A DNA stretch of 64,000 bases from an uncultured Bryobacteraceae bacterium (lineage in GTDB: Bacteria > Acidobacteriota > Terriglobia > Bryobacterales > Bryobacteraceae), in assembly GCA_938027685.1 (NCBI GenBank), contig CALJAM010000016.1, positions 1 through 64,000 of the forward strand, given 5' to 3'. Under the pieces are notes generated by a model. It searched no databases and was not told the origin of the DNA. It saw nothing but the letters and a program-made list of their open reading frames with translations. The translations under genes were made by a program, and so were the position numbers. The first letter of the stretch is position 1; the number at the start of each line of letters is the position of its first letter. This document shows, one piece after another, positions 6,110 through 29,975 of this stretch.

Positions 6110-7315
6110 TCATTCGTAGCGCAGGGCTACGGCGGGATCCAGACGTGCGGCCCGGTTGGCCGGCAGCAGGCCGAAAATCACTCCCACGGCGAACGCCACT
6201 GCGAACGCGACCAGCACCGAGAGACGGGAGATCGGTACGCGCACCTGGGGAGCGATGAAGCGAACGCTGAGCGGGATCCCCACTCCCAGCAGGATGCCCA
6301 GCACGCCTCCGGAAACGCTGATCAGCACGGCTTCCAGCAGGAACTGCTGAAGGATGTCGCGCCGGGAGGCGCCGACGGCCATGCGCACGCCGATCTCGCG
6401 CGTTCGCTCGGTCACCGTCACCAGCATGATGTTCATGATGCCGATGCCGGAGATGACCAGTGCGATCGCCGCCACCAGGATGAGCACGATGGTCAGCGCC
6501 AGCGCGATCTGTTTGGCGGCGCCCAAAATGGCGGAGAGGTTCTCGACCGTGTAGCGCGCGCCGGGACGATGACGACTTTCAAGCAGCGCGCGCACCTGTG
6601 CGGTCACGGGTTCGACGTCCTCAGTGCGGCGCACCTGCACGTACAGCGGATCGATGCGCTCGACGGGCGTGAAATACCGCTGCACGGTGATGGGAATCAG
6701 GATGGTCTCGCGCGTCAGCTCGGAGAGTCCGAAACTTTCCACTCGCTCCTTGAAGACCCCGACGACGGTGAACTGCAGCCCGTGAATCTTGACGATCTCT
6801 CCGATGGCCGAGTGCGGGCGCCCGTAGAGACGCTGCGCCAGCTTCTCGGTGAGCAGCGCCACTTTCTGCCGCAGCGTGACGTCGCCTTCGTCGAGCGCGC
6901 GCCCGGCGAGGATGACGAGGTTGCGCACGTCCGCGTAGTAGTGGTCCGAACCCACGATGCGCACGTCCTCCTCGCGGCCCTCGATCATCATGCGGTCGAA
7001 GCTGGTCATCACGCCGGTGACCGCGCGGATGCGCCCGTCCAGCTGCGTGCGCACGGCCTCGACGTCGGACCACTTCAGGTAGTCCGCTTCCACCTCGGGC
7101 ATGTTGGAGCCGGCGGCCTCGTAGTAGGCGTAAATCATGTTCGACCCCACGCCCTGGATCTGCTCGAGTATGTACTCGCGGCTGGTCAACGAAATGGTCA
7201 CTACGAGGATGACCGAGGCGTTTCCGATCACGAGCCCCAGGGCCGTGAGCCCGGTGCGCACGGGGTTGGCGCGAAGGGCGCTGACGCTGAAGCGGAAGGC
7301 CTCGCCAAGGAACAC
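6110..7315 (-). CDS. MacB-type ABC transporter permease
   Basis: The 401-residue protein has the MacB/FtsX architecture. A first transmembrane helix (residues about 20-42) is followed by a large periplasmic MacB_PCD domain (about 45-260) and three C-terminal helices. The conserved coupling segment is VTERTREIGVRMAVGAS, and the end is PANRAARLDPAVALRYE, the usual MacB permease C-terminus. Such permeases work with an ATPase and usually a membrane-fusion protein in mechanotransmission or efflux. Neither partner is adjacent: the upstream neighbour is a TPR protein and the downstream one an MgtC protein, so the ATPase must be elsewhere. The next gene upstream ends about 25 bases away. Confidence 0.9.
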   Translation of the reverse strand: MFLGEAFRFSVSALRANPVRTGLTALGLVIGNASVILVVTISLTSREYILEQIQGVGSNMIYAYYEAAGSNMPEVEADYLKWSDVEAVRTQLDGRIRAVTGVMTSFDRMMIEGREEDVRIVGSDHYYADVRNLVILAGRALDEGDVTLRQKVALLTEKLAQRLYGRPHSAIGEIVKIHGLQFTVVGVFKERVESFGLSELTRETILIPITVQRYFTPVERIDPLYVQVRRTEDVEPVTAQVRALLESRHRPGARYTVENLSAILGAAKQIALALTIVLILVAAIALVISGIGIMNIMLVTVTERTREIGVRMAVGASRRDILQQFLLEAVLISVSGGVLGILLGVGIPLSVRFIAPQVRVPISRLSVLVAFAVAFAVGVIFGLLPANRAARLDPAVALRYE

Positions 7316-7340
7316 GGTTCAGTCGCCGAGTTCCATGGTA

Positions 7341-8204
7341 TCAGGAGAGCTGCCTCAGAAGCCGCTCGGCTTCCCGGCGAGGCGGATCGTCGGGCGTTAG
7401 AGGAGAGGCCAGGTATTCGCGCAGCAGGCGCCGCGCCTCGTCGAGGTTGCGACCCGCCTGGATGTACATGGCCGCACGCTCGAACTTCAGGCGGGCGCTG
7501 CCGGGAGCGATCTTCTCAGCCTGGGCAAGCAGCGCCTCGCTTTCCTCGAAGCGACGCTGTTTGGCCAGGAACCGCGCCAGATCGATCACGCGACCGAGCT
7601 GACGAGGCGCCTGCTCCAGCGCCAGGCGCAGATGCTGCTCCGCGCGGGCGAATTCCCTTCGCTTCTCGGCCAGGCGCGCCTCGGCGTAGTGACGCTCTGC
7701 GGGGTCCAGTCGTCCGATCCGTTCGAGCAGCGCCGCAGCCCTCTCGAGTCCCCCGCCCAGGAAGCCGGGCGCTTCGAGGTAATACTCGAAAAGGTCGTTG
7801 ACGGCCTCGATGTTGTCGGGATCCAGCTGAACGGCCCGCTCGAAGTGCTCGCGCGCCTTGCGCGCCAGCCCGGGCGCGGTCAGGAAACTGGACGTCTCCG
7901 CACGGCGGCCATAAGCCCGGCCGAGCCAGTGGTGGTAACGGGCGTTCAATGGATCGGCGGCCACTGCCTTCTCGAAACATTGCGAGGCCTTCTTGTACTC
8001 GCCTTCCATGTACCAGGCCATGCCCAACAGCTCCCAGGTGGGCCCGTCCTTGACGGGGAGGGAGGAGAGCAGGGCGATGGCCTCTCGGTACTCCGTGCGC
8101 TGATACAGTTGTCGGGCGCGCTCGAGCTCCCCGGCTCCGGCAGCCGCGATCGCGGCCCAGAACCAGCCTATCAGCGCCGGCGCCAAAAGCCGCATCGCAC
8201 CCAT
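7341..8204 (-). CDS. Exported tetratricopeptide-repeat protein
   Basis: The protein has 287 residues from the ATG at 8204. I chose this start because GGAAGGA lies 9 bases upstream; a GTG at 8222 and an ATG at 8195 are alternatives. An N-terminal signal peptide (RLLAPALIGWFWAAIAAAG) is followed by at least five TPR-like units, clear at WELLGMAWYMEGEYKKASQCFEKAVAADP and ARKAREHFERAVQLDPDN. TPR proteins are scaffolds; the partner is unknown. It ends 25 bases before the MacB-type permease and may share its transcript, which would make a role beside the transporter possible. Confidence 0.85.
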   Translation of the reverse strand: MGAMRLLAPALIGWFWAAIAAAGAGELERARQLYQRTEYREAIALLSSLPVKDGPTWELLGMAWYMEGEYKKASQCFEKAVAADPLNARYHHWLGRAYGRRAETSSFLTAPGLARKAREHFERAVQLDPDNIEAVNDLFEYYLEAPGFLGGGLERAAALLERIGRLDPAERHYAEARLAEKRREFARAEQHLRLALEQAPRQLGRVIDLARFLAKQRRFEESEALLAQAEKIAPGSARLKFERAAMYIQAGRNLDEARRLLREYLASPLTPDDPPRREAERLLRQLS

Positions 8205-25765: not shown

Positions 25766-26128
25766 TCAGATTCTGGCTGCCCCGGCCAGCGCAAGCGATC
25801 CTTGCGTGCGGAACTCGTACCGCTCGATGAGTATGGCCGCCTGTCCGGGTTGAGCGCGCACCACCCGTCCCGTGGCAACCAGCTTGAGCGGGCATTCGTT
25901 GTTCAGTCGCACCGGCCAGTTCACTGAGACCTCAACGCGATCGCCTGGCATGAGCTGGTGGTCGGTACGAATGAGCACGCCGCGCGAGCTCATGTTGACC
26001 GTCTTGCCAAGGCCGAACTCCGTGCCGTTGCGGTTGAAAAGGCGAAACCGCACCTCTTGTTCGAGCGGGAACCGCTTGGCTGCCCGGCGCTCCAGGCGTC
26101 TCGGGGGAGTTTTAGCCGCCTGTTCCAT
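25766..26128 (-). CDS. PilZ-domain protein
   Basis: The 120-residue single-domain protein has the PilZ c-di-GMP binding pattern: an arginine-rich RxxxR ([11 protein letters not shown], residues about 12-22) and NMSSRGV in place of the usual D/NxSxxG at about 45. The rest is a beta barrel ([22 protein letters not shown]). PilZ proteins are c-di-GMP effectors; a target cannot be named. It is divergent from the RidA-like gene and about 1 kb from the c-di-GMP-type glycosyltransferase locus, which may be a functional link. Confidence 0.85.
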
Positions 26129-26265
26129 CTCCGCGAACGCTCCTCGTGTTTTTAGATTGCCTCAGACGCCCCACCGCCGCCTATAGGCCAAAGGATTCAT
26201 TTTGTGGGCAGACCCGGGTACTAGACCCTATGGGAGCGGCCTGGTACCTAGGTTATCATGGCGGC

Positions 26266-26715
26266 ATGCACGTTCCTGGCATACCTTCCTGTTTGCTGCT
26301 GAGCGTTTGCCTCGCCGCCACCATGGCGGGGGCCGAGAAGCGGGTCATCCATCCGCCGGAGTTTCCGGCCGGCCGTCCGTTTAGTACGGGGCTGCTGGTT
26401 GGCGACACGCTCTACATTTCCGGTCAGGTCGGGGCCGATCTGAAGACGGGCCAGATCCCGGAGGATTTCGAGGCCGAAGTGCGCCAATGCCTGGACAATA
26501 TCGGGCTCGTGCTGAAGGCGGCGGGCATGAGTTTCGCTGACGCGGTCTCGGTGCAGGTGTACCTGACCGACATGAGCCTGTTCCCGCGCATGAATGCGGT
26601 CTACGTGAAGTACTTTCCCGAGCCCCGGCCGACGCGGACGACGGTGGGCGTGGCGTCTCTGGTCGGCAAGGCGCGCATCGAGATCACAGTCACGGCGCGC
26701 AAGTCGAGCAAGTGA
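26266..26715 (+). CDS. Exported RidA-like protein lacking the catalytic arginine
   Basis: This 149-residue YjgF/RidA-family protein has a signal peptide (PSCLLLSVCLAATMAGA), unusual because canonical RidA is cytosolic and removes reactive enamines/imines. The fold signatures GRPFSTGLLVGDTLYISGQVG, LDNIGLVLKAAG and VQVYLTDMS are present. The region matching RidA Arg105 (usually V-A-R-L-P) reads GVASLVGKA, so the key arginine is serine. It probably belongs to the non-Arg RidA subgroups of unknown activity. I chose the ATG at 26266 because the frame upstream has no family features. Confidence 0.8.
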   Translation: MHVPGIPSCLLLSVCLAATMAGAEKRVIHPPEFPAGRPFSTGLLVGDTLYISGQVGADLKTGQIPEDFEAEVRQCLDNIGLVLKAAGMSFADAVSVQVYLTDMSLFPRMNAVYVKYFPEPRPTRTTVGVASLVGKARIEITVTARKSSK

Positions 26716-27132: not shown

Positions 27133-28008
27133 ATGGCAGGCTTCAGCATGTGGCCATCGAACGAAATCGGCGGCGGGGTAGGCCGCGCCGGGCGATGGAT
27201 GCTCTTGGGACTGGCTACGATCCTGGCGGGCCAAGCCTACGGCTCCGCCTGGCCACAGAAGAGGGGTCACGGCATCCTCATTGTGCACGCGTACGGATAT
27301 CGGGCGGAGGAGCGCTTTGACGAGCGCGGGCAACGCACCAGACTGGGCGAGGAAGCCCGCTTCCGCAGCACAGCAATTCAGGGTTGGTTGGAAGCCGGCC
27401 TGACGGATCAGTGGACGCTGGTCATCAGCGCCCCCGTGCATCGGCTCGGCTACCGAGATCGTTGGAGCGAGCAGAAGAACCTGGCCCTGGGGGACCTGCA
27501 GGTCGGCGTCCGGCGTAGCCTCCGTCAGCCGGAGACGGGCTGGCAGGTTGCCGTACAGGCTTTGGTCAAGGCGCCGGCTTACGATGCCAATGGCCGCCCC
27601 AGGCCCGGCAATGGGCAGGCCGACGCCGAGGGCAGCGTACTCTTCGGGCGCAGCGTACCGCTGGGACGAAAGTGGGGCTACGTGGCCGCCGAGACGGGCT
27701 ATCGGAAGCGGTGGGGCCGGCCGGCCGACCAGCTGCGGGGTGAGGCGGCCGCCGGGCTTCATCTGCATAGCCGCCTCACCCTCTCGGTGCAGTTCTTTGC
27801 CATCCGCGGCCTGGGCAGCCTTCTGCCGCCGGAACGGGCAACCAACCCGCTGATCGAGCCGCGCTTCGACCTGTACAAGATGCAGGGTTCCTTGCTGGTA
27901 TGGCTCTCGAAGGGATGGGCTATGCAGATGGGTTACGTGAAAGACCTGGTAGGTCGCAATGTCGGCGCGGGCCACGCCTTGGTGCTCGGAGTATGGCGGA
28001 AGTTCTGA
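27133..28008 (+). CDS. Outer-membrane beta-barrel-type protein (XagA-like)
   Basis: The 291-residue protein has a signal region (GRWMLLGLATILAGQAYG, about residues 21-38) and then alternating hydrophobic/aromatic strands, ending with LVLGVWRKF, an aromatic C-terminus typical of outer-membrane barrels. The next gene, a MshEN-glycosyltransferase, overlaps its end by 16 bases. I recall the same order in xagA-xagB of Xanthomonas (biofilm polysaccharide), where XagA is an outer-membrane protein. Likely role is polysaccharide export, an inference. An ATG at 27148 is an alternative start. Confidence 0.6.
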   Translation: MAGFSMWPSNEIGGGVGRAGRWMLLGLATILAGQAYGSAWPQKRGHGILIVHAYGYRAEERFDERGQRTRLGEEARFRSTAIQGWLEAGLTDQWTLVISAPVHRLGYRDRWSEQKNLALGDLQVGVRRSLRQPETGWQVAVQALVKAPAYDANGRPRPGNGQADAEGSVLFGRSVPLGRKWGYVAAETGYRKRWGRPADQLRGEAAAGLHLHSRLTLSVQFFAIRGLGSLLPPERATNPLIEPRFDLYKMQGSLLVWLSKGWAMQMGYVKDLVGRNVGAGHALVLGVWRKF

Positions 28009-29975
28009 CCTCAGATGGGCGTGAGCCCGTGGGTGCGGCCGGAGACAGGGGCGTCCTGTCCGACGGGGGCGCGTGCTCGGCGCAGGCGGCGGAGTGGAGC
28101 GGCTCGGAGCGGGTGGACTCCCAGGCGCTTCCGGACGAAGGCAGGCCTCGAATCGGCCAGAGGCTCGTGGAGCGAGGCCTGCTGACGCCCGCCCAACTGG
28201 AGGCGGCGCTGGCGGAGCATCGTGCAACGGGCGTGCCGTTGGGACAAGTCTTGCTGGGGTGGGGCTGGGTCCGAGCACTGGATTTTTACGAAACGTTGGC
28301 CGAGCAGCTCGGACTGCCTTTCGTCAATCTCCTCGAAACGCCGCCCGACCCTGCGTTTTTCGACCCCGCGCGCATTCAGGAATACGCCGAGTCGCTGTAC
28401 CTGCCGTGGCGGCAGAGCCGCGGCTCGCTTTGGATCGTCGTGGCGGAACCGTCGCAGACGGTGTTCGAGAAGCTTCGGGAGCAGTACGGACCGGAGGTCG
28501 AGTTCGCCGTCACATCGCGCTTCGACATCCTTTGGACCATCCAGCGGCTGGGCCAGCCTCATCTGGTCCATCGCGCCACCTTAGACCTGTGGGAGCGCGC
28601 GCCCGAGCTCTCCGCGCGTGTGATCCTGAGCTGGCCGCAGTGGGTTGCATTGTACGCCGCGATCGCGTTGTGGTCGGCTGCGGTCTGGTTCTGGCCTGAA
28701 ATTAGCCTCCTGGCGACCAATGCAGCGGTCACGTTTTTCCTCGTTTCGGCTTTTCTGCTGAGGGTCGTGCTCGTTTGGCGCGCCCGGCGCCGGCGTGCGG
28801 CGCAGCAGCGGCACCGCGACCTGACTCTAGAAGACAAGGATCTGCCTGTCTACACCATCCTCGTGCCGCTCTACCGCGACGCGGCGGTGGTCCCTGTGCT
28901 CGCGCGCGCCCTGCGCAGGCTGGATTATCCCCGAGGCAAGCTGGACATCAAGCTGATCTTGGAAGACGACGATCTGGAGACGGTGGAAGCCTGCAAGCAG
29001 GCTGGACTGGAGGCCAACGTGGAGCTGATCCGTGTGCCTCCCGGCCATCCGCGCACCAAGCCCAAAGCCCTGAATTACGCGCTCCACTTCGCGCGCGGCG
29101 AGTTCGTTACCATCTACGACGCCGAAGACGTCCCAGAACCGTCGCAGCTGAAGCGGGCCGTGGCCGCGTTCCGTCAGGGGCCCCAAGAGGTCGCCTGCTA
29201 CCAGGCCAAGCTGAACTATTTCAATTGGAACGAGAACTGGCTGACGCGCCTCTTCACCCTCGAGTACTCGTTATGGTTCGACTGGTATCTGCCCGGACTC
29301 GAATCGCTCCGCATTCCCATCCCGCTGGGCGGCACCTCGAACCACTTCGATGCCCGTGTGCTGCGCGCGTTGAGAGGGTGGGATCCGTTCAACGTCACCG
29401 AGGACGCCGACCTTGGCGTCCGCTTCACGCAAAAAGGTTGGCGCGTGGCCATGCTGGACTCGACCACCTTCGAGGAGGCCAACTCGCAGGTCCGAAACTG
29501 GATTCGCCAAAGGTCGCGTTGGATCAAAGGCTACATGCAGACCTACCTGGTCCACATGCGCCATCCCATACGACTTGCTCGCAGTCTCGGCCTGCGAGGC
29601 TTCCTCGGCGTGCAGTTTTTCGTGGGCGGCGCATTCCTCGCGCCGTTGAGCTTTTTGCCCTTACTGGCGCTGTTCGGATTCTGGCTGGCCGGCGCCCGTT
29701 TCGTGGATGCGCTGTTCCCGAGCTGGTTGTGGCCCTTCGCGGCGGGCAATTTCGTCCTGGCGGGCGCCGTGCTGTGTCTGTTTCATATGATGGCAGCCTG
29801 GCATCGCGGTCGGAGGCGATTGGCATGGTGGGCTCTGCTGCTGCCCGTTTACTACCTGCTCATGTCGGTGGCGGCCTACAAGGGTCTGTGGCAACTGGTC
29901 CGCCGGCCGCACTATTGGGAGAAGACCGAACACGGATTGACCCGACACGATGCCGTCCATCTGCTTTCCCTGTGA
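27993..29975 (+). CDS. Processive glycosyltransferase family 2 with N-terminal MshEN domain
   Basis: The 660-residue protein starts with a MshEN (type II secretion E N-terminal) domain at residues 53-112. Both tandem motifs are readable: RIGQRLVERGLL...AALAEH and PLGQVLLGWGW...TLAEQLG. This domain binds c-di-GMP in other proteins. After two membrane helices (about 216-262) is a cellulose-synthase-like GT2 domain: EDDD at 324-327, DAED at 376-379, TED at 469-471 and QRSRW at 506-510, then about four more helices. These are the signs of a processive beta-glycan synthase that pushes polymer through the membrane. The nearest analogue I know is XagB of Xanthomonas. Start ATG overlaps the previous gene. 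A start further upstream is open but less likely. Confidence 0.85.
   Translation: MAEVLTSDGREPVGAAGDRGVLSDGGACSAQAAEWSGSERVDSQALPDEGRPRIGQRLVERGLLTPAQLEAALAEHRATGVPLGQVLLGWGWVRALDFYETLAEQLGLPFVNLLETPPDPAFFDPARIQEYAESLYLPWRQSRGSLWIVVAEPSQTVFEKLREQYGPEVEFAVTSRFDILWTIQRLGQPHLVHRATLDLWERAPELSARVILSWPQWVALYAAIALWSAAVWFWPEISLLATNAAVTFFLVSAFLLRVVLVWRARRRRAAQQRHRDLTLEDKDLPVYTILVPLYRDAAVVPVLARALRRLDYPRGKLDIKLILEDDDLETVEACKQAGLEANVELIRVPPGHPRTKPKALNYALHFARGEFVTIYDAEDVPEPSQLKRAVAAFRQGPQEVACYQAKLNYFNWNENWLTRLFTLEYSLWFDWYLPGLESLRIPIPLGGTSNHFDARVLRALRGWDPFNVTEDADLGVRFTQKGWRVAMLDSTTFEEANSQVRNWIRQRSRWIKGYMQTYLVHMRHPIRLARSLGLRGFLGVQFFVGGAFLAPLSFLPLLALFGFWLAGARFVDALFPSWLWPFAAGNFVLAGAVLCLFHMMAAWHRGRRRLAWWALLLPVYYLLMSVAAYKGLWQLVRRPHYWEKTEHGLTRHDAVHLLSL

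Follow-up and report, generated by a model that had tools for sequence, protein, structure and literature searches.

The well-studied synthase-dependent polysaccharide systems, namely those for cellulose, poly-GlcNAc and alginate, have periplasmic subunits and outer-membrane exporters of the tetratricopeptide repeat (TPR) type. Here, we describe a locus at positions 27133-29975 of a 64,000-nucleotide stretch of DNA from an uncultured Bryobacteraceae bacterium; this whole stretch is called the window below. The two genes of the locus overlap and encode a predicted outer-membrane beta-barrel and a synthase in which an MshEN domain is fused to a glycosyltransferase family 2 (GT2) domain. The locus belongs to the sfz/xag exopolysaccharide clusters, a little-characterised kind, and it is likely to be a reduced, two-gene version of such a system, with a synthase switched by cyclic di-GMP (c-di-GMP) and a barrel as the exit. 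The cluster kind itself is already known; what is added here is the two-gene reduction and the 12-stranded COG4313/FapF fold of the barrel.

In stalk-forming Zetaproteobacteria, sfz1-sfz6 were reported as a candidate cluster for the stalk exopolysaccharide (PMC8250860). In that report, Sfz1 is BcsB-like, Sfz2 combines EpsE-N and GT2 domains, Sfz4 is a glycoside hydrolase (GH10), Sfz5 (929-983 bp) has no assigned function, and Sfz6 carries CotH and SH3. Its main text uses neither "barrel" nor "porin" and does not present Sfz5 as a barrel, and Betaproteobacteria are stated to lack sfz5 and sfz6 (PMC8250860). The genes of iron oxidisers were first named bcsB-like and xagBCD-like (PMC4643136), and the candidate twisted-stalk cluster Sfz1-6/Sfb1-4 has in Sfz2 an MshEN (EpsE-like)-GT2 synthase with TED and QxxRW, like that of the window (PMC8250860, PMC4643136). 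XagABCD of Xanthomonas, likened here by its description, likewise forms an operon for exopolysaccharide and biofilm; its XagB is a putative glycosyltransferase, and deletion of xagA or xagB reduced the biofilm of an rpfG mutant (PMC3609779). Compared with Sfz1-6, the window has Sfz2- and Sfz5-type genes only, and the barrel gene comes first.

Two further systems share parts of this design. NfrB-NfrA of E. coli likewise combines a fusion of MshEN and GT2 with an outer-membrane partner; its genes overlap by 14 nucleotides, compared with 16 in the window, and its gating by c-di-GMP was shown experimentally (PMC8669469). On the other hand, MshEN is C-terminal in NfrB and N-terminal in the window synthase, and NfrA is a TPR-rich barrel, unlike the window barrel. 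BcsA-BcsB has the same GT2 fold and TED/QxxRW motifs in a membrane-integrated processive synthase, and a BcsB-like subunit is present in the larger sfz/xag clusters. However, the c-di-GMP domain of BcsA is PilZ, whereas that of the window synthase is MshEN, and no BcsB match was obtained in the window genome.

The overlapping synthase and barrel genes

The features of the locus are as follows.

27133..28008, + strand: gene A, predicted outer-membrane beta-barrel, 291 amino acids including the signal peptide (mature part approximately 27241-28005)
27993..29975, + strand: gene B, MshEN-GT2 synthase of the Sfz2/XagB-like kind, 660 amino acids
27993..28008, + strand: 16-nucleotide overlap of the synthase start with the barrel end; the same overlapping ATG is found in relatives
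28149..28307, + strand: MshEN tandem c-di-GMP motif of 53 residues, with a 5-residue spacer between its two 24-mers, from NF053729 and the motif table
28851..29534, + strand: GT2 catalytic region with DAED, GGTSNHF, TED and QRSRW (Glyco_tranf_2_3, residues 318-544 of the open reading frame (ORF) from 27900)

The ORF list started gene B at ATG 27900, and this start was dropped in favour of ATG 27993. The latter is most likely the synthase start because the identical 16-nucleotide overlap, with the overlapping ATG, recurs in all six Bryobacteraceae loci compared (the window, L028, L029, L030, L031 and G001). Such an overlap suggests translational coupling of barrel and synthase. A barrel gene upstream of, and overlapping, the synthase gene had been called in the original prediction, which was made from the letters of the window, and both the overlap and the barrel model described below bear this out.

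The gene B product consists of a linker of ~50 residues, MshEN, membrane helices, GT2 and more membrane helices, in this order; ahead of GT2 the model has two long helices, one of which is above a simple hydropathy threshold. In the ORF, Pfam recognised MshEN (PF05157) at 38.8 bits, against a cut-off of 23.1, and Glyco_tranf_2_3 at 89.5 bits, against one of 27. We aligned the window synthase with the 80 best-matching ones out of at least 572; these 81 are the nearest set and not a random one. GGTSNHF was invariant in the alignment, and the other catalytic motifs varied little (A to G once in DAED, T to A twice in TED and S to T once in QRSRW). Identity of the window synthase to synthases outside Bryobacteraceae was 43-52%. 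These domains, together with DAED, TED and QRSRW, confirm the expected fusion of a processive GT2 to MshEN, and gene B is predicted to encode a synthase of the processive kind.

Structure prediction, which had been suggested as a check, supported the assignment of both proteins. The AlphaFold2 model of the synthase, built from 81 sequences, had a mean predicted local distance difference test (pLDDT) score of 90.2, and its best matches in PDB by Foldseek were hyaluronan synthases, BcsA and chitin synthases, all of which are membrane-integrated processive synthases. No MshEN structure was among the matches of this whole-synthase search, which is uninformative since the GT domain fills the list. 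The barrel model, built from 54 homologues, had a mean pLDDT of 94.5 and 12 long strands.

Identities of the window synthase as NfrB, BcsA or PgaC were ruled out by curated cut-offs. Specifically, it scored 32.5 bits against the NfrB equivalog NF008411 (cut-off 1170), in which the domain order is reversed, 57.9 and 48.6 bits against the cellulose synthase models TIGR03030 and NF008558 (cut-offs 699.1 and 992), and 35.8 bits against the PgaC/IcaA poly-GlcNAc synthase model TIGR03937 (cut-off 422.3). By domain content and identity, it is an MshEN-GT2 (Sfz2-type) synthase of the sfz/xag kind. The synthase of Ferriphaselus sp. R-1 (L036), which is 50% identical to it, is very probably the published xagB-like gene, as judged by organism and gene order.

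The same genome encodes a second MshEN glycosyltransferase on contig C30 (L158 852-2696, + strand), which has the NfrB order of GT then MshEN and scored 518.8 bits against NF011305 (cut-off 409) and 38.9 bits against the c-di-GMP motif (cut-off 38). By eye, nothing resembling NfrA stood out among the genes in 20 kb around it, these neighbours having had no Pfam scan. In addition, a search of a plasmid collection with the synthase gave eight records, which were of no use for synteny; three of them (H2, H3 and H5) were homologous synthases in Frigoribacterium, Geobacillus and Nonomuraea, and the Nonomuraea one matches the GT part only.

The N-terminus of the gene A product is signal-peptide-like, with MAGFSMWPSNEIGGGVGRAGRWMLLGLATILAGQAYG followed by SAW and the cleavage site between them placed by eye. 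The protein alone gave no Pfam or NCBIfam match up to E 1. Its model was closest to the COG4313 channel PDB 4rl8 (Z 25.2; root-mean-square deviation 2.3; 239 residues aligned (VIA); 13% identity), followed by FapF (PDB 5o65; Z 23.8), KdgM (Z 19.7) and NanC (Z 19.3). Foldseek likewise ranked 4rl8 (E 2.0e-09) and FapF at the top, and the barrel family profile matched 4rl8 by sequence (E 8.4e-08). PF13557 (Phenol_MetA_deg) had no match in the window barrel and matched 9 of the 54 family members (best 4.3e-12); the model has the 12-stranded fold of the COG4313/PF13557 class. On the strength of the model, we are confident that gene A encodes an outer-membrane barrel of the COG4313 type. It is like the COG4313 channel and FapF in the 12-stranded fold, and differs from them by its tie to a polysaccharide synthase. 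FapF also carries an extra N-terminal domain, and the window barrel has none.

Barrel-synthase linkage and cluster reduction

A barrel homologue, detected by an iterated profile, flanks the synthase in 54 of the 81 loci, window included. It lies downstream of the synthase in 44 loci and upstream in 10 (the window, L028-L031, L089, L091, L098, L102 and L103). Among the 27 unlinked loci, 12 belong to genomes, including that of L036, with a barrel elsewhere (E 2.1e-17 or better), and thus barrel and synthase occur together in 66 of 81. The expectation of linked orthologues therefore held in the 54 loci and failed in these 12. Across 61 near genomes, with the window's own counted in, barrel and full-length synthase (at least 60% identity) were found in the same four, side by side in each; three of the four belong to one genus. 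Since the neighbouring pair recurs in other genomes, the pairing of barrel and synthase is not a matter of chance. Within 297 Acidobacteriota genomes, a synthase at E 1e-40 or better was found in the window's own only, and strong barrels (E below 1e-20) in three, own included; with 4 synthase and up to 9 barrel candidates scored per genome, these absences are soft. Separately, the genomes of L084, L088, L096 and L097 (G374, G378, G381 and G382) have 2-4 barrel copies clustered away from the synthase flank.

The larger clusters place the barrel among further genes. A BcsB-like gene lies upstream of the synthase in 68 of the 81 loci, the half-length one of L029 being counted as present, and five of the 13 loci without it are cut by the contig end; a polytopic Sfz3-like gene lies downstream in 77. 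From the class to which Ferriphaselus (G356) belongs, 369 genomes were sampled; ten of these, one being G356 itself, had a barrel with an E-value no higher than 1e-20. Up to 7 candidates were scored per genome, and absences in this sample are soft as well. Six of the ten (L172-L177) show the order BcsB-like, synthase, polytopic (Sfz3), GH113-like, barrel and CotH. Note that L172, L173 and L175 are L033, L041 and L035 again, so that this order adds three new clusters, and that two ORFs make up the BcsB-like gene of L177. In six gammaproteobacterial clusters, the sfz5 position is thus occupied by a homologue of the barrel in the window, a match by gene position and not by Sfz5 sequence. Because the six-gene order equals sfz1-sfz6, with the barrel homologue at the sfz5 place, the window barrel is probably of the Sfz5 type. 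The published cluster differs in that Sfz4 is GH10 where the cluster scanned here has GH113, and in that the CotH proteins of the loci examined here are shorter than Sfz6 (PMC8250860).

Against the published lack of sfz5 and sfz6 in Betaproteobacteria (PMC8250860), Ferriphaselus sp. R-1 has a barrel (E 2.1e-40) directly beside a CotH protein (L160 789-3817, - strand, G356:C3). This pair is on a 229,680-base contig, and the synthase is on a 465,728-base contig.

We next consider the surroundings of the pair in Bryobacteraceae. The five Bryobacteraceae synthases in the tree form one clade with a Shimodaira-Hasegawa-like approximate likelihood ratio test (SH-aLRT) value of 100. This clade is placed beside eight rows that belong to gammaproteobacteria, Ferriphaselus and Desulfobulbaceae (SH-aLRT 83, not starred). 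The tree is of the quick kind and carries long-branch warnings for L089, L029 and L036; the partial rows L052, L061, L077 and L085 were left out of it and of alignment A3. Both BcsB-like and Sfz3-like genes are lacking in four of the five judgeable Bryobacteraceae loci (the window, L028, L030 and L031), the 3.7-kb contig of G001 being too short to judge the surrounding genes. Accordingly, the window has neither the BcsB-like gene upstream nor the Sfz3-like gene downstream that mark sfz/xag clusters.

L029, which branches off first, still has a BcsB-like part of half length, followed by the barrel, the synthase and an Sfz3-like gene. L030 (8701-9123) and L031 (9790-10263), both on the + strand, have membrane-protein-like ORFs of 141 and 158 amino acids directly after the synthase, which weakly resemble Sfz3 positions 108-212, and the window and L028 have barrel and synthase only. 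In L029, the BcsB-like half with a C-terminal membrane helix (6154-7938, + strand) continues in frame, without a stop, into the barrel, and the fused frame has an internal signal-peptide-like stretch; it is possibly a polyprotein.

Relocation of the missing genes to other parts of the genome was rejected, as the profiles gave only weak matches. PF03170 matched in none of four genomes (G000, G001, G002 and G027). The best matches of the BcsB profile in the genomes searched were 0.0044 over 63 positions (G000), 0.065 (G002) and 0.16 (G001), and the Sfz3 profile gave nothing in G000, G002 and G027 and 4.4e-4 over 164 positions in G001; all of these were taken as not real. Neither a GH113 hydrolase nor a CotH protein, both of which the larger clusters encode, was found at the window locus. 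Furthermore, as had been noted from the letters, no co-polymerase, TPR exporter or deacetylase was present among the neighbours run against Pfam. These results indicate that a larger sfz/xag cluster has been reduced to two genes in a lineage-specific manner. Since the BcsB-like, Sfz3-like, GH113 and CotH parts were not found at the window locus, they are not essential in this lineage if the system works.

Proposed export route and alternatives

For the two gene products, we propose the following route. c-di-GMP would bind the N-terminal MshEN domain, as homology suggests, and its binding would release GT2, which would then polymerise a sugar nucleotide processively. The synthase would extrude the chain through its own membrane helices, like hyaluronan synthase and BcsA, and the chain would leave via the 12-stranded outer-membrane barrel, as suggested by linkage, fold and co-occurrence. 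The two Chloroflexota loci, L105 and L107, have the synthase and a BcsB-like gene and no barrel, which fits an outer-membrane role of the barrel; Chloroflexota are not known to have a classical outer membrane.

Several observations weigh against this route. No periplasmic bridge for the chain was found. COG4313 channels are regarded as uptake channels, and an import role of the barrel is hence possible. Fifteen of the 81 synthase loci belong to genomes in which no barrel was found, and 13 of these are not Chloroflexota; seven of these 13 (L037, L038, L063, L074, L083, L090 and L100) bear isolate or strain names, and therefore missing sequence cannot explain all absences, although some of the others are metagenome-assembled genomes. 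Conversely, there are barrels without a nearby synthase: the strong barrels of the Acidobacteriota genomes G257 and G113 have no synthase within about 7 kb, and three of the ten class-level barrel genomes (L178-L180) have no other cluster genes in ~16.5 kb. Distances in the barrel, BcsB-like and Sfz3 families correlated with synthase distances at Spearman 0.46 (54 loci), 0.83 (68 loci) and 0.87 (77 loci), respectively. None of 300 label shuffles reached any of the three values, which are weak evidence, as species relatedness alone produces such correlations. Because its value is the lowest, the barrel is a looser partner of the synthase than the genes lost here.

The genomes with no barrel, the barrels with no nearby synthase and the low distance correlation are in line with an alternative in which the barrel is an uptake porin for oligosaccharides or small molecules, or the outer-membrane anchor of the glycan, export taking another route; the best fold matches of the barrel (COG4313, FapF, KdgM and NanC) can also be cited for it. 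We nevertheless regard this alternative as improbable. The barrel is the sole partner retained, in overlap with the synthase, where the BcsB-like and Sfz3-like genes are absent, and FapF, an exporter, is also a near fold match. No sugar transporter or glycosidase was found among the immediate neighbours run on Pfam, ORFs further out being unscanned.

A second alternative concerns the first step of the proposed route, the c-di-GMP switch: MshEN may be present without acting as a switch, the synthase being constitutive or otherwise controlled. The published MshEN motif is two 24-residue stretches with a 5-residue spacer (PMC5013675). In the window, it reads RIGQRLVERGLLTPAQLEAALAEH, spacer RATGV and PLGQVLLGWGWVRALDFYETLAEQ, with four of four glycines present. 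Compared with MshE, motif 1 keeps Arg9, Gly11, Gly18, Leu25 and Leu29, with Leu10 changed to Ile and Gln32 to His, and motif 2 keeps Leu39, Gly40, Gly47, Leu58 and Gln61, with Arg38 changed to Pro and Leu54 to Phe. The earlier statement that both tandem motifs are present and that the first ends with His instead of Gln was therefore correct. In an alignment to MshE by sequence, not by structure, most pocket residues are kept, and the exceptions are the His for Gln, Pro for Arg and Phe for Leu. Gln ends motif 2 and His ends motif 1, and at this one place, the last of motif 1, the window breaks the published relaxed pattern, which also speaks against a working switch. Erosion of the motif is common within the family. 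Of 81 rows, three of which are cut in the motif region, 12 fit the relaxed pattern in both motifs (17 if a final His is accepted) and 24 retain all four glycines. The genome has only one GGDEF protein above the cut-off, with one further match below it.

Other results favour a switch. The window synthase is in the better-kept set, with its four glycines and 57.1-57.2 bits against a cut-off of 38 for the NCBIfam c-di-GMP motif NF053729, which places it in the MshEN family. A match to NF053729 with an E-value of at most 0.01 persists in 68 of 77 family members. Gln ends motif 1 in L028-L031, and His ends motif 2 in L028 and L031. Changes of Gln32 shift the affinity of MshE by at most about fivefold (PMC5013675). 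Moreover, the host can probably make c-di-GMP, because the genome encodes a GGDEF protein with RWGGDEF. Taken from the alignments, the switch appears well kept in the branch of the window and eroded in many alphaproteobacterial ones, and we consider a switchless synthase in the window unlikely. Many alphaproteobacterial synthases among L037-L106 have eroded MshEN motifs and a nearly invariant GT core; in these, the switch may be lost or altered.

That the locus is a decaying, non-working remnant of a once complete cluster would fit what is left of the BcsB-like and Sfz3-like genes in L029-L031 and their absence from the window and L028, but is very unlikely, as both genes are open with their catalytic motifs in the window and L028-L031, the identity of L028-L031 to the window remains 44-62% for the barrel and 59-75% for the synthase, and the overlap is retained in all six loci.

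A reduced, c-di-GMP-switched sfz/xag system thus remains the reading that we prefer. More tentatively, and with considerable doubt, we suggest that the two proteins alone, the switched synthase and the 12-stranded COG4313-type barrel, may carry a polysaccharide from the cytosol to the surface without BcsB-like, TPR or OPX components, that the same barrel (Sfz5) may let the twisted-stalk polysaccharide of iron oxidisers out through the outer membrane, and that an Sfz5-CotH pair in Ferriphaselus may have been overlooked. The lineage seemingly retains only a switched synthase and a small barrel, pointing to a minimal working set. Furthermore, the sfz5 position in the candidate stalk cluster of iron oxidisers gains a predicted fold together with a candidate function that can be tested. 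Some branches of this synthase family seem to retain the MshEN switch, and others to have it eroded.

PilZ and other neighbouring genes

Two neighbouring genes lie on the upstream side of the locus.

25766..26128, - strand: PilZ-domain protein (Pfam PilZ, 36.3 bits), 1.0 kb from the barrel gene; a neighbour, not part of the locus
26146..26715, + strand: Rid-family protein (Pfam Ribonuc_L-PSP), between the PilZ and barrel genes; a neighbour, not part of the locus

The original prediction had counted the PilZ gene into the synthase-exporter. We rejected this assignment because the gene is on the opposite strand, the Rid gene lies between, and the linkage is found within the genus only: L028, which is of the same genus, has PilZ, IMPDH, Rid and MgsA next to the locus, and L029-L031, whose loci extend about 7-8 kb to either side, do not. 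The immediate neighbours run against Pfam comprised Rid, PilZ, IMPDH, MgsA, SpoU, DUF218 and LytTR. Enzymes of the Rid family are cytosolic. The Rid-family protein at 26146-26715 has an N-terminal hydrophobic stretch that is signal-peptide-like by eye, which is odd for this family.

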